Notes under the pieces: generated by a model
Databases searched by the model: none
Told to the model about the DNA's origin: nothing
Seen by the model: only the letters and a program-made list of their open reading frames with translations
Translations under genes and position numbers: made by a program
In this document: positions 58,104-64,000 of the stretch, piece by piece
Position numbering within the stretch: position 1 is the stretch's first letter
Layout of the letters: each line of letters opens with the position of its first letter
Assembly: GCF_009296315.1 (NCBI RefSeq)
Contig: NZ_WHLY01000002.1
Span: forward strand, 744,001-808,000
Length of the DNA stretch: 64,000 nucleotides
Reading direction: 5' to 3'
Source: Salmonirosea aquatica
GTDB lineage: Bacteria; Bacteroidota; Bacteroidia; Cytophagales; Spirosomataceae

Positions 58104-60170
58104 ATGTCTGATAACGATAACAAAAGAAATCCCTTGAATCCTAAAAGTCCGCAACGGGGCTATCAGGGTTGGATCATTGCCGCCCTCATTGCTACGATTC
58201 TGGGAATAACATACCTGAACAGATCGTCCTCACTCCGTGAAATTACCCAAAAGCGGTTTGAGAAAATGGTGGCCGATAAGGAAGTGGCCCGCGTGACTAT
58301 CGTCAACGACAAGTCTGTGGAGGTTACCCTCAAACCAGAAGCCCTTAGAAAGGATAAATACCAGGTTATTTCCAAGGAGAACAATTACTTCGGAGGCGAG
58401 GCCAGTCCGCACTACCAGTTCCAGGTCACTTCGGCGGAAACTTTCAAGAAAGATCTCGAGAAAATGCAGGAGGCCGTCCCTGACGGTGATAAAGTCGAAT
58501 ACAAAATTGATACCCGAAACGATTGGACCGGGTTTATAGGTACCTGGGGCTTTTTCATTGTCATGATTCTGGTGATGTATTTCCTGCTGGGCCGTATGTC
58601 GGGAGGCGTAGGACCAGGAGGTCAGATTTTTAACATCGGTCGGTCCCGGGCTACATTGTTCGATGCCGAAAACAAAGTCAAGATCACCTTCAACGATGTA
58701 GCAGGCCTTGATGAAGCCAAAGAAGAAATCAAGGAGATCGTAGACTATCTGAAAAGTCCTGACAAATTCAAGAAATTAGGGGCCAAAATTCCGAAAGGCG
58801 CTTTGTTAGTGGGACCTCCCGGTACCGGTAAAACCCTCCTGGCCAAAGCCGTAGCGGGTGAAGCGGAAGTACCTTTCTTTTCGCTTTCAGGTTCCGACTT
58901 TGTCGAAATGTTTGTGGGGGTAGGTGCCGCTCGGGTACGTGACCTGTTTAAGCAAGCCAAAGAGAAGGCTCCCTGTATCATATTTATCGATGAAATCGAC
59001 GCCGTTGGTCGCTCACGTGGCCGGGGTGGTATGCCGGGTTCAAACGACGAACGGGAAAATACGCTGAATTCACTTTTGGTAGAAATGGACGGCTTTGCCA
59101 CGGATTCAGGTATTATCATTGTGGCCGCCACCAACCGTCCTGATGTACTTGATTCAGCTTTGCTACGTCCCGGTCGTTTTGACCGTCAGATATCTGTAGA
59201 CAAACCTGACGTTATTGGCCGGGAAGCGATCTTCAAGGTACACCTTAAGCCGATCAAAATCTCGGAAGATGTGGATATTCAGAAATTGGCTGCTCAGACG
59301 CCCGGTTTTGCTGGAGCCGAAATTGCCAACGTATGTAACGAAGCGGCCCTCATCGCCGCCCGGCGCGATCGGGATAGTGTGACCATGCAGGACTTTCAGG
59401 ATGCCATGGATCGCGTGATTGGTGGTTTGGAAAAGAAAAACAAATTGATTTCTCCCGAAGAGAAGCAGATTGTGGCCTATCATGAAGCTGGTCACGCTGT
59501 GGCAGGTTGGTTCCTGGAACACGCCGATCCTTTGGTGAAAGTGACGATTGTTCCTCGTGGCGTAGCTGCTTTGGGATACGCCCAATACCTACCCCGAGAG
59601 CAGTACTTGTACCGCACTGAGCAACTATTCGATGAGATGTGCATGACACTGGGTGGTCGTGCGGCGGAGGATGTGGTCTTTGGAAAAATATCCACGGGTG
59701 CCCTCAGTGATCTGGAGCGCGTTACCAAAGTGGCCTACAGCATGGTTACTATGTATGGTATGAATGATAAGATTGGAAATATATCGTTTTACGATTCCAA
59801 ACAGTCGGACTATTCATTTACCAAGCCCTACTCGGATGCTACTGCTGAGAAAATCGACCATGAAGTACGCCTGCTGGTTGACAAAGCCTACCAGCATGTG
59901 ATGTCCATGCTGCGTGACAAACGCGAAGCGTTGGAAGTGATCGCCCAGGAACTTCTGGAAAAGGAAATCCTGTTCCAAAGTGACCTTGAACGATTGATAG
60001 GTAAGCGGCCTTATGAGAAAGAAACCAACTACCAGGCTTATGTTAACCGTCGCTCGCGTGAGGAAGCCGCCATCCATGATGAGGCAGTAAAGCAAGCGCA
60101 CGAAACCAACGAACAGGCTGGTGATGTGGTGGTGGAAACCGAAGTAGAAGGCGGTGAGCCAAAAGTGTAA
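58104..60170 (+). CDS. ftsH: ATP-dependent zinc metalloprotease FtsH
   Basis: A 688-residue membrane protease. Two N-terminal helices (about 20-38 and 150-168) enclose a periplasmic domain; the AAA module has Walker A GPPGTGKT (237-244), Walker [13 protein letters not shown] and the SRH region; the protease domain has HEAGH (460-464) for zinc. It degrades misplaced membrane proteins and short-lived regulators as a hexamer. Length and order are standard. A 23-bp perfect inverted repeat follows. Confidence 0.97.
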
Positions 60171-60181
60171 ATCACACTTTT

Positions 60182-60230
60182 CATATAAATAAAGAGGCCA
60201 GTTTAAGAAACTGGCCTCTTTATTTATATG
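60182..60230. terminator. Bidirectional terminator, perfect 23-bp stem
   Basis: Bases 60182-60204 and 60208-60230 are exact inverted repeats around AAG, with T-rich arms on both sides. It lies between ftsH (+) and the last gene of the minus-strand lasso-type operon. Confidence 0.92.
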
Positions 60231-60232
60231 AG

Positions 60233-61339
60233 CTATTCATTTTTCAAATACCACAATGCCTTATGGTATAGAAGGCTAAATTCGGAAGCATAACTTAGAT
60301 GCAGTTTGCCAACCTTTAAGCGATCCAACAAAGTATCGCGCATGGTCAGAGCGTGGCGAAAATATGCCCATGTCGAGTTCTTAGGATTCTTAGGCATATT
60401 TTCCCACTCCTTCAGAACACTGCTTGATAAGGTTTTGGGCGTGACGTCAGGCCATTCTTTTTTCCATTCCAAACCCAGGCCTCTCAAGACTCCCAGACTA
60501 TGTTCCACCAATTTTTGGATTCCCTTCTTCTGAGCCATCTCATTGATTACTTCCCAATCGGTTTCATGCCCGTATCTTGAAAGATAGGTTGCAAAATCAG
60601 CAATATATTTCAACTTCAACCAGCGTTCTTTGCCTCCGTGGTGCATTAGCAAAAGCAAGAATTGATATTCATTTGAAAAACTACGAAGGGATTCGTTCTG
60701 AATTCGATGAAACAATTCGAATGTAGACCATTCTGAGGAAGGAAAATGAAAACCCAATCTGGGATAGGATACTTTCCAATGCATTTCCAATGTAAATTCC
60801 AGGGAACTACCCGTAACTTTTCTTAACATGGGCACATGATAATCTGTGCGCAGAAATGCGTCTCGCAAAGTAGGCGAACCATTCAATAAATATATCCGAT
60901 AAGGGTCGGCAGAAAAACCCGCCTTTGTAACGAGGTCCAACGCAGATTGGTATTTATCCACACCCACCAACATATCAATATCACCGAACTCCCGTTTCCC
61001 GACTTGTCCATATAACCATTCGGCCCAGACGCATCCCTTATAGGCATATACCGGAATCTGGTTTTCCTCCAGTATTTTGGCCACTCGAATTGTCTCCTGC
61101 GTGTTGATGAGATTGGACACTGTAATGTCCAAACATTCTTGTCTAAGCTCAGAAACCCAACTTTCATTTTTCCCTTGTACCAACGAGAACAGTTGAGGCC
61201 GGACATTATGCCAACGTGCAAGAGCCAACAACCGATCGCTTCTAACTGACCTCATTTCCTGCTCGTCCAAAGGCAGGTCTATGCTGGTTGAGATCAGTAG
61301 AGATAGTTCTGGCGAAAAACCTACGCTGCGTTTTTCCAT
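60233..61339 (-). CDS. Nucleotidyltransferase family protein (lasso-type cluster)
   Basis: A 368-residue protein of the PF14907-type nucleotidyltransferases. IPVYAYKGCVWAEWLYG carries the conserved KG, and REFGDIDMLVGVDKY has the metal-binding Asp120 and Asp122. The rest is helical and includes NEYQFLLLLMHHGGKERW, typical of the group. Members often sit in peptide or polysaccharide clusters with PqqD and HprK-like kinases. Its start overlaps the stop of the kinase gene by one base (TAATG), so it is the last gene of this operon. What nucleotide or sugar it transfers is unknown. Confidence 0.86.
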   Translation of the reverse strand: MEKRSVGFSPELSLLISTSIDLPLDEQEMRSVRSDRLLALARWHNVRPQLFSLVQGKNESWVSELRQECLDITVSNLINTQETIRVAKILEENQIPVYAYKGCVWAEWLYGQVGKREFGDIDMLVGVDKYQSALDLVTKAGFSADPYRIYLLNGSPTLRDAFLRTDYHVPMLRKVTGSSLEFTLEMHWKVSYPRLGFHFPSSEWSTFELFHRIQNESLRSFSNEYQFLLLLMHHGGKERWLKLKYIADFATYLSRYGHETDWEVINEMAQKKGIQKLVEHSLGVLRGLGLEWKKEWPDVTPKTLSSSVLKEWENMPKNPKNSTWAYFRHALTMRDTLLDRLKVGKLHLSYASEFSLLYHKALWYLKNE

Positions 61340-62250
61340 TATACTTTCGTCGCATTAGACAGCACCCACTCCTCCAGCGAGGCAAAGTCCTTGGGGCGGC
61401 GCAACCGCCATATAGAGGCCGCCGAAGCACACCAAATGCTTTGCATGAAATGCCGCTGCAGGGCTTTCCCAGTAAGGAGGTGGGTAGCCAAAGGAAAATG
61501 CCTGACCAACTCGACTGGAGCTTCGGTAGGTTGTACGGCCTGTAGGGCAGAACGATTACGTGCCTTATGAAGAAAATAGATTTGCGCCACCGGAACGGGT
61601 TTACTTGGAAAATCCATATCAGGTACCATGGCAAACTTATTGATGCCTTCGCTAACGGGGACCAATCGAGCCGAATCTAGCCCCAGTCCTTGTACTGTAT
61701 TTCCCCATATTTTCAATTGAGGATAAGCCGGTAGTACAAAAGGCTGATTCTTTTTGTCAAATGCAATGGCCGTGAGGTCATCGCTGAGTAGTTGAGCTCC
61801 TTGTTTGACAAAGGCCGATGCAGTAGTAGACTTACCCGCCCCCGGCTCGCCCATGAAGCAAAAAGCTTCCTGGCCTACTTGTACCGAGCTGGCATGTAGC
61901 AGTAGCAATCCTCGCTGGAAAAGGACACATCCCAGCGCCTCACTAACTGTAAAAAGACTGAGAAGAGCGAAATCCTCTGTATAAGAATCGACATAAAGGG
62001 TATGGCCACCAACCGCCCGGAAGCTCGCTATGCCTTCCCATTGCAAGCAGATCGACCCATCCGAACCCGTCCCACTTCGCGCCATGACGCCTCGCCTATG
62101 AATAGCGGTTTGTTCCATGGACGGAAACGTGATCGCTGACCGGACAATATGAATGTCCGGGATAGAATTACCGTTTTCCGGTAAGGAAATCAATTCGGGG
62201 AGTAGGATATCGGAAGCAATGGTCAGCTCGAAAGCACGGTACAAGGGCAT
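61339..62250 (-). CDS. HprK-like kinase of a lasso-type cluster
   Basis: A 303-residue kinase of the HPr-kinase-like type. P-loop GEPGAGKST lies at residues 134-142 (preceded by LLLHASSVQVGQEAFCFM), a double-Asp LLSDDLTAI at 154-162 is the metal site, and LPAYPQLKIWG follows. There is no HPr in the pathway; relatives in lasso-peptide clusters (paeninodin type) phosphorylate the peptide C-terminus. It lies 18 bases after the B2 gene. The substrate here is unknown because no precursor is seen. Confidence 0.85.
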   Translation of the reverse strand: MPLYRAFELTIASDILLPELISLPENGNSIPDIHIVRSAITFPSMEQTAIHRRGVMARSGTGSDGSICLQWEGIASFRAVGGHTLYVDSYTEDFALLSLFTVSEALGCVLFQRGLLLLHASSVQVGQEAFCFMGEPGAGKSTTASAFVKQGAQLLSDDLTAIAFDKKNQPFVLPAYPQLKIWGNTVQGLGLDSARLVPVSEGINKFAMVPDMDFPSKPVPVAQIYFLHKARNRSALQAVQPTEAPVELVRHFPLATHLLTGKALQRHFMQSIWCASAASIWRLRRPKDFASLEEWVLSNATKV

Positions 62251-62268
62251 AATTCCTTTTCTTGGTAA

Positions 62269-62694
62269 TTACTGCCATACCCAAATGGGCCGGTAGTTTG
62301 TTTCTTCAGGCCAAGCGCCAATGACAATATGCCCATCCTTCTCGACCCAGGCATGGGCCTCGAATCCTTGGGGGGCCGCTGTCTGCACGCCAATGTGTAA
62401 TGGCATATCCGGATCACACCGAAGGATATATTTTAAAGCCAGGGCCTGGGGTAGGCAGGTCAATGCAAAGGGTAATCTAAACGCTGCCGTCTGCACGGCC
62501 CACGCCGCATCGGCTATGTATTGTTTTGGATAAACACCCGCTTGCCGTACCCGTAGGGTATATGCGTAGGCTTTTTTGAACTGGTTAAAAGAAAGGAACC
62601 GCAGGCTCGCTTTAATAACGAGTAGAACTACCATGGCTTTCCCCAGTAAGAGCCACTGCCTGCTGCTGAGTTTTCGTATCTTGTTCCAGTCCAT
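62269..62694 (-). CDS. Lasso peptide B2-type leader protease
   Basis: A 141-residue protein of the lasso-peptide biosynthesis B2 family, a transglutaminase-like cysteine protease that removes leader peptides. The catalytic residues are present: Cys80 in LTCLPQALALKYIL, His114 in FEAHAWVE and Asp120 in KDGHIVIG. An N-terminal basic helix (MDWNKIRKLSSRQWLLLGKAM) is normal for the family. It lies 28 bases downstream of the B1/PqqD gene, as in other lasso clusters. Confidence 0.92.
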   Translation of the reverse strand: MDWNKIRKLSSRQWLLLGKAMVVLLVIKASLRFLSFNQFKKAYAYTLRVRQAGVYPKQYIADAAWAVQTAAFRLPFALTCLPQALALKYILRCDPDMPLHIGVQTAAPQGFEAHAWVEKDGHIVIGAWPEETNYRPIWVWQ

Positions 62695-62722
62695 GTTCTA
62701 CCAGCTCACTCATTCGGCTGCG

Positions 62723-63007
62723 TTAGGCTTCATCGACTACTAATTTTTCACGTAGCAGTTCATCAAGCAACGCCGCTATATCCTCCTCGCAGTTTACGCG
62801 GTCAACTTCGTATTCATTCATTACCAGCTCGCAAAGTTCGTCAAAGGATTTCGGGCCGCTTTCAAGGGCGCTCCATACTAAAGCACCTACTTCACTCAAA
62901 CCGTAGTACATACCTTTGTCGTGGTTCAGGATAACTACCTCATCGGCCATATTTGATGACACCTGCGCGGTAGATAAGCTGAATTTTTTATTGCTCAATT
63001 CATTCAT
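62723..63007 (-). CDS. PqqD-like protein (lasso B1 / leader-binding)
   Basis: A 94-residue RiPP recognition element. VVILNHDKGMYYGLSEVGALVWSAL and VNCEEDIAALLDELLREKLV are the two marks of PqqD/B1 proteins, which bind the leader peptide and bring it to the B2 protease. It is the first gene of a four-gene minus-strand operon (B1, B2, kinase, nucleotidyltransferase) behind an exact -7 box. No precursor peptide lies in the 110 bases upstream. Confidence 0.9.
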   Translation of the reverse strand: MNELSNKKFSLSTAQVSSNMADEVVILNHDKGMYYGLSEVGALVWSALESGPKSFDELCELVMNEYEVDRVNCEEDIAALLDELLREKLVVDEA

Positions 63008-63056
63008 GCAATGGAAATTGTTATGCTTGTGGGGTAGGTGGTGTTGAAATTATTCA

Positions 63057-63090
63057 CAAAAATAATAAATATACCTCCCGTTGGAGTCAA
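63057..63090 (-). promoter_or_regulatory. Promoter of the lasso-type operon
   Basis: On the minus strand TTG (63090-63088) and TATTTTTG (63064-63057, an exact TAnnTTTG) are 23 bases apart, about 50 bases upstream of the PqqD-like start. The spacing is at the upper limit reported for Bacteroidota promoters. Confidence 0.55.
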
Positions 63091-63117: not shown

Positions 63118-64000
63118 CTATAATTCAAACGTAATCCCTTGGGCCAACGGCAGAGAATGCCCGAAATTGATCGTATTGGTCTGTCGGCGCATATAGGTTT
63201 TCCAGGCATCCGATCCCGATTCGCGTCCCCCGCCGGTTTCTTTTTCGCCCCCGAATGCTCCTCCGATTTCGGCCCCCGAGGTACCTATGTTGACATTTGC
63301 GATGCCGCAGTCACTACCCGCTGCCGACAAAAATCGTTCGGCTTCCCGCATGTTGAGAGTAAAGATGGCCGATGAAAGTCCTTGGGGTACCCCGTTCTGT
63401 AAGGCGATTGCCTCTTCCAGCGTGGCATATTTGATCAAATACAGAATGGGAGCGAAAGTTTCCCGCTGCACGATATCCCAGTGATTCTCCACCTCAGCTA
63501 CACAGGGTCGAACATAACAACCTGACTCGTATCCGGATCCTGTCAGGGTACCCGGCTCAATAACAAAGGTACCCCCCTGGGCTTTGATAGTTTCTAATGC
63601 GGCCTGATAGTCGTCTACGGCCTGTTGGTCAATGAGGGGCCCTACGTGGTGGGTCGCTTCCATGGGATCACCAATCCGGAGCTGAGTATAAGCTTTTTGA
63701 AGCCGTTGCTTCAAATCCTCGTAGATTTTTTCGTGTACAATAAGCCTGCGCGTACTCGTGCAACGCTGACCAGCCGTACCTACTGCCCCGAACACGATGG
63801 CGGGAACAGCTACGGCAAGGTCGGCCTCGGGGGTAATGATAATGGCATTGTTCCCTCCGAGTTCCAGCAGACAGCGGCCTAGCCGCCGCCCGGTTGCTTC
63901 GGCTACGGCCTTTCCCATGCGGGTACTTCCTGTAGCCGAAACCAACGCCACCCGCGCATCACTGGCAATCCATTCCCCAGGTTCACGACCACCCAACACC
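63118..64000 (-). CDS. ALDH7-type aldehyde dehydrogenase (partial, 5' end outside)
   Basis: The C-terminal 293 residues of an aldehyde dehydrogenase that continues beyond the right edge, so the true start is not in view. The conserved [12 protein letters not shown] carries the catalytic Glu, and [11 protein letters not shown] the catalytic Cys. The late block [20 protein letters not shown] and [12 protein letters not shown] are typical of ALDH7 (antiquitin, piperideine-6-carboxylate dehydrogenase of lysine breakdown). It reads toward the lasso-type operon with 110 bases between the two. Confidence 0.9.

Follow-up and report, generated by a model that had tools for sequence, protein, structure and literature searches.

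Lasso peptides are formed by a recognition element, B1, which binds the leader of the precursor, a protease, B2, which cuts the leader off, and a cyclase, which closes the macrolactam; the threonine at position -2 is 94% conserved (PMC9266682, PMC11420955). Among the described systems, the paeninodin cluster of Paenibacillus dendritiformis resembles the locus presented here in its split B1/B2, its lasso cyclase, its precursor and its HprK-like kinase with a His-Lys-Asp-Asp set (PMC9266682, PMC5067487), residues that are needed in lasso kinases (PMC9266682). However, paeninodin is encoded by one cluster and its kinase targets a conserved C-terminal serine, whereas the genes of the present system occupy several loci, a terminal serine is found in no more than 12 of 88 precursors, and the operon has an NTP_transf_5 gene in addition. 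The psm cluster of Bacillus pseudomycoides likewise pairs a kinase, PsmK, with an annotated nucleotidyltransferase, PsmN; PsmK phosphorylates the C-terminal serine of pseudomycoidin, and PsmN is needed to add hexoses there (PMC9266682). It is also a single cluster, and the phosphoserine carrying these hexoses occupies a site that is not conserved here.

Remote genes have been described for other peptides. The citrulassin pathway needs a distant PAD gene (PMC9266682), but there a late tailoring enzyme alone is remote, whereas in the present case it is the core enzymes of leader processing that lie apart from precursor and cyclase. Unclustered lanthipeptide proteases, found by correlation, are also remote from their precursors (PMC8960859); they belong to a different RiPP class and concern proteases, whereas here the recognition element and the tailoring enzymes are remote as well. 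A literature search, covering open-access papers and a few subscription ones, returned no description of core lasso genes that are unlinked. The B and C proteins of the paeninodin type are reported to work apart (PMC5067487), whereas those of the MccJ25 type are reportedly inactive unless combined (PMC11420955), an observation that could speak against unlinked genes. Clusters in Spirosoma, Fibrisoma, Runella and Lacihabitans contain homologous B1, B2, kinase, nucleotidyltransferase, cyclase, precursor, lipoprotein and PorU2 genes, but in contrast to the genome studied here they are mostly organized as single loci.

The operon from Salmonirosea aquatica very probably supplies one half of a lasso pathway, namely leader processing and tailoring, while the genes for precursors and cyclases are found at other sites of the genome and its proteins act in trans. 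It would be a maturation hub for several unlinked precursor/cyclase loci that are associated with surface-protein genes (type IX secretion, PorU2 sortase, curli). Leader processing is unlinked from cyclisation across an entire genus and in its neighbours. This is of special interest, since mining for lasso peptides usually relies on the adjacency of precursor, B and C genes, so that split pathways are overlooked or classified as orphaned pieces. Whether one recognition element and protease serve several precursors and cyclases in trans is now a testable question.

The operon and its enzymes

The window, i.e. the whole stretch of 64,000 nucleotides analysed (contig C2:744001-808000), belongs to a genome of 7.07 Mb that is 99.99% complete; the operon lies at 0.80 Mb. 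Open reading frames and profile searches bear out the original prediction of four minus-strand genes in the order B1, B2, kinase and nucleotidyltransferase, including the junctions of 28 nt, 18 nt and a 1-nt overlap. B1 (62723..63007, 94 aa) is a PqqD-like RiPP recognition element (PF05402, 1.8e-18) with 67 bits against NF033536 (cut-off 80). It is followed by the lasso leader protease B2 (62269..62694, 141 aa; NF033537 79.3 bits, cut-off 33), which also matches Transglut_core3 (PF13471, 4e-22). The HprK-like lasso-tailoring kinase (61339..62250, 303 aa) and the NTP_transf_5 nucleotidyltransferase-like protein (60233..61339, 368 aa, GDID motif; PF14907 7.9e-39) complete the operon. The predicted closing terminator proved to be a hairpin with a perfect 24-bp stem at 60180..60232 (-34.7 kcal/mol, z -12.5), which is located between the nucleotidyltransferase gene and the convergent plus-strand ftsH (58104..60170). 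In contrast, the proposed promoter box gained no support: a promoter-like site exists at 63090-63062, but the number of sigma-70-like sites in the promoter scan equals chance level. Upstream of B1, also on the minus strand, lies a gene for L-piperidine-6-carboxylate dehydrogenase (63118..64000, running past the window; NF050084 828 bits, cut-off 730), which like ftsH is a flank outside the system. A check of the reading frames inside the operon found no precursor-like one, as had been stated, and a cyclase just past the window can be discounted, the operon being flanked by metabolic genes and ftsH.

In profile searches of the genome, B1 is the sole PqqD-family match, B2 the sole B2 and the NTP_transf_5 gene the only one of its kind. 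A second B1/B2 pair, which might have served an ordinary cluster elsewhere, is thus not present, and a search of plasmids for copies of the operon returned none.

Concerning the active site of B2, the assignment of Cys80 and His114 stands, both being present in 73 of 73 homologues, but that of Asp120 does not, since this residue is conserved in only 4 of 73. The third catalytic residue is likely at position 127, which is D, E or N in most of the 73 homologues and Ala in the B2 of the window. A search for solved structures related to B2 yielded no meaningful relative.

The kinase retains its P-loop, as predicted, with K140 in it, as well as H119, D157 and D158; all four are invariant columns in alignment A1 and correspond to the conserved His-Lys-Asp-Asp residues of lasso kinases of the PadeK/ThcoK type. 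Its matches to the HPr kinase/phosphorylase models are weak and under the cut-offs, with 21.7 versus 240 bits for TIGR00679 and 22.6 versus 33.3 bits for PF07475. The nucleotidyltransferase-like protein, a putative transferase, adjoins the lasso kinase in the manner of PsmN.

Precursors and cyclases at distant loci

The whole genome contains two lasso-type cyclases and three precursors, at a distance of 0.5-3.4 Mb from the operon; the sites lie at 1.34, 4.05 and 4.23-4.25 Mb on C2. The search of the genome that had been proposed together with the original prediction thus yielded both kinds of missing component, which favours a split cluster with precursors encoded elsewhere. Both cyclases, CYC1 at 4.05 Mb and CYC2 at 4.24 Mb, are asparagine-synthetase-like and match the lasso-cyclase model NF033535 with 273 and 455 bits, below the cut-off of 525, which is likewise missed by the cyclases of all family members. 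The ATP-binding SGGxDS motif of such cyclases is present, the CYC1 family retaining SGGxDSS. Two further Asn_synthase matches at 0.23 and 1.79 Mb have lower scores with the lasso-cyclase model than CYC1 and CYC2 and were taken as ordinary asparagine-synthetase-like enzymes.

The precursor P1, MNAYTSKNATTPGGKKSYVKPTLKKIGSVARLTLKGGSQTDAFSTYTP, is encoded 93 bp upstream of CYC1. A scan for the leader motif revealed P2 at 1.34 Mb, a near copy of P1 with a different tail, and P3, MNNTKKTYTKPTLSVKGKVQNLTLAAGSFSADVPGGATNGPFGGGGG, at 4.23 Mb. The combined leader-plus-core pattern finds only P1, P2 and P3 in the whole genome, while the reversed pattern, used as control, gives 0 matches. All three possess the YxxPxLxxxG leader, a Thr at -2 and a D/E at core position 7-9; the Thr places the ring acceptor at Asp7 (P1, P2) or Asp8 (P3). 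P1 and P2 pass the lasso-leader cut-off of NF033521, whereas P3 falls just short (15.4 versus 19 bits). Between P1 and P2, which is a recent paralogue of P1, the leader DNA differs at 2 bases and the core with the stop at about a dozen. A single processing machinery that constrains the leader would be expected to leave such near-identical leaders next to diverged cores. Co-localisation of A, B and C genes, which is absent here, is typical of the lasso class but not essential to it.

From these sequences we infer how cleavage, cyclisation and modification would proceed, how precursors and cyclases would pair and what the function may be. B1 would bind the YxxPxLxxxG...T leader of P1, P2 and P3, and B2 would cleave after position -1, the residue next to Thr(-2). 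The cyclase encoded at the respective locus (CYC1 for P1 and P2, CYC2 for P3) would then join core residue 1 to Asp7 or Asp8, and the kinase, followed perhaps by the nucleotidyltransferase, would decorate the peptide.

It is conceivable, but unlikely, that the operon serves only P1, P2 and CYC1, and that P3 and CYC2, which are linked to curli genes, do without B1 and B2 or are inactive. Kinase genes are accompanied by CYC1-type genes, the combination of CYC2 and curli is confined to few genera, and pseudomycoidin is reportedly made without leader and leader peptidase, all of which would fit such a restriction. Yet P3 has the full leader motif with Thr(-2) and a core that is almost invariant in three genera, and the single B1/B2 is available to recognise it. 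Moreover, in Runella a CYC2-type cyclase is found beside B1, B2 and kinase. A wider search for P3 found full-length versions in these three genera only, the other matches being generic lasso leaders.

Conservation of the split among relatives

In the genome of the window, the gene order is saccharopine-dehydrogenase-like gene, piperidine-6-carboxylate dehydrogenase, B1, B2, kinase, nucleotidyltransferase and ftsH. The comparison of gene order that had been suggested shows the operon at the same site throughout the split clade: the order recurs in Persicitalea jodogahamensis, in Arundinibacter roseus (with one extra gene) and in the examined Dyadobacter loci, where an aldose epimerase gene is inserted before ftsH and a few loci are without the dehydrogenases. 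Where the dehydrogenases occur, the piperidine-6-carboxylate dehydrogenase gene is the upstream neighbour of B1 across the clade. Both halves of the pathway are present in all 48 Dyadobacter genomes and within 20 kb of each other in none; on shared contigs, their minimum distance is 361 kb. At the Dyadobacter cyclase loci, 48 of 49 have a precursor within 400 bp, whereas a search of 994 kb of control DNA from operon loci found no ORF with the motif.

Other relatives carry the parts together. In Fibrisoma and many Spirosoma, precursor, B1, B2, kinase, nucleotidyltransferase and CYC1 form one locus (17 of 26 Spirosoma have the parts within 20 kb). In Rhabdobacter, the two loci of the window genome appear as one: the dehydrogenases, B1, B2 and an extra gene are followed by a bracketed set (repeat protein, type IX C-terminal-domain protein, precursor, CYC1, lipoprotein and PorU2) and then by kinase and nucleotidyltransferase. 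These joint loci indicate that the two halves belong together. The extra gene encodes a cysteine-rich protein of 354-358 aa; in Arundinibacter it separates B2 from the kinase, and in Rhabdobacter it follows B2 (L092:10234-11310; L110:6284-7348). Neither Pfam nor NCBIfam gives a match for the copy of Arundinibacter, and the protein is absent from the operon in the window.

Among 222 genomes of the family, 96 have both the kinase and a CYC1-type cyclase, 118 have neither and 8 are discordant (96/5/3/118; phi 0.93), although these counts are inflated by shared descent and do not represent independent events. Taken together, the single B1/B2, the two cyclases, the three precursors, the conserved split and this co-occurrence support the split-cluster reading. 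They leave little room for the other option of the original prediction, a cyclase-free system, in which a different peptide would be cleaved by B1 and B2 and modified by the kinase and nucleotidyltransferase, and to which the cyclases far away would be unrelated. Such a system would agree with the operon neighbourhoods of the split clade, which lack a cyclase, and with five genomes (G013, G018, G022, G033 and G034) that have the kinase but no strong cyclase match. However, two of the five are only 63% and 78% complete, peptides with the leader motif occur in the window genome only at or near cyclase loci or as a paralogue of one that does, co-occurrence of kinase and cyclase is near-perfect and in relatives these genes share a locus with cyclase and precursor; we therefore regard a cyclase-free system as very improbable.

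Even less probable is a vestigial or decaying half-cluster retained by chance, for which the Ala at position 127 of B2 and the frameshifts in one Dyadobacter genome described below might speak, since seven close pairs of split Dyadobacter give dN/dS values of 0.04-0.19 across the four genes and the operon is kept in all 48 genomes of this genus and at the same site in Persicitalea and Arundinibacter. By this measure, purifying selection acts on each of the four genes in the split genomes. On the kinase tree, 2 changes suffice to explain the split state, as compared to 18.8 with shuffled labels; it has, on this reconstruction, either one origin and one reversal or two origins, and the split is old and stable. 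One Dyadobacter genome (G187) carries a frameshift in the kinase (L151:7477-8393) together with one in a precursor leader (L169:6100-6270). It is possible that this represents a co-loss or a sequencing error, and since the frameshifts may be such errors, the evidence for co-loss is weak.

Kinase target and surface-gene context

The C-terminal residues of P1, P2 and P3 are Pro, Gln and Gly, respectively. Since the C-terminal serine phosphorylated by kinases of the PadeK/ThcoK type is present in so few of the precursors (12 of 88), the target of the kinase is probably a different one. A D/E at core position 7-9 is found in 85 of 88 distinct precursors and absent in 3. A Gly-Ser within the first nine core residues occurs in 88 of 88, and this invariant ring serine is a candidate target. 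However, one genome (G006) possesses the Gly-Ser motif without a match to the kinase, so the motif may serve recognition by the cyclase instead.

The loci of CYC1 and its precursors adjoin genes for type IX-secreted repeat or ice-binding proteins, a lipoprotein and a C25 sortase of the PorU2 type (NF052324 925 bits, cut-off 450). The sortase gene is convergent to the CYC1-lipoprotein pair (L007:5281-8586), and most relatives carry a homologue close to the cyclase. A curli operon is bracketed by P3 at its start and CYC2 at the other end (L032:8575-18844, L008:8857-10818); it encodes curlin-repeat proteins, CsgE, CsgF, CsgG and a TolB-like lipoprotein. A similar arrangement of P3, curli genes and CYC2 is found in Persicitalea (L241, L112) and Arundinibacter (L242, L120). 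This context suggests a surface-related role for the lasso peptides, and the conserved linkage to type IX, PorU2 and curli genes points to the same possibility. A literature search, mainly of open-access papers, found no report in which lasso peptides are connected to curli or to type IX secretion. A tentative extension of the hub reading, which we consider rather doubtful, concerns the peptides themselves, encoded inside surface gene sets (type IX-secreted repeat or ice-binding proteins with a dedicated PorU2 sortase, and the curli operon). These peptides would build, anchor or control surface structures rather than act as secreted antibiotics, and the invariant Gly-Ser of the ring would be a site of modification or recognition.

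Outside the family, lasso clusters of cyanobacteria (L214, L216, L218, L219 and L227) contain a related kinase together with several precursors and often an ABC transporter.
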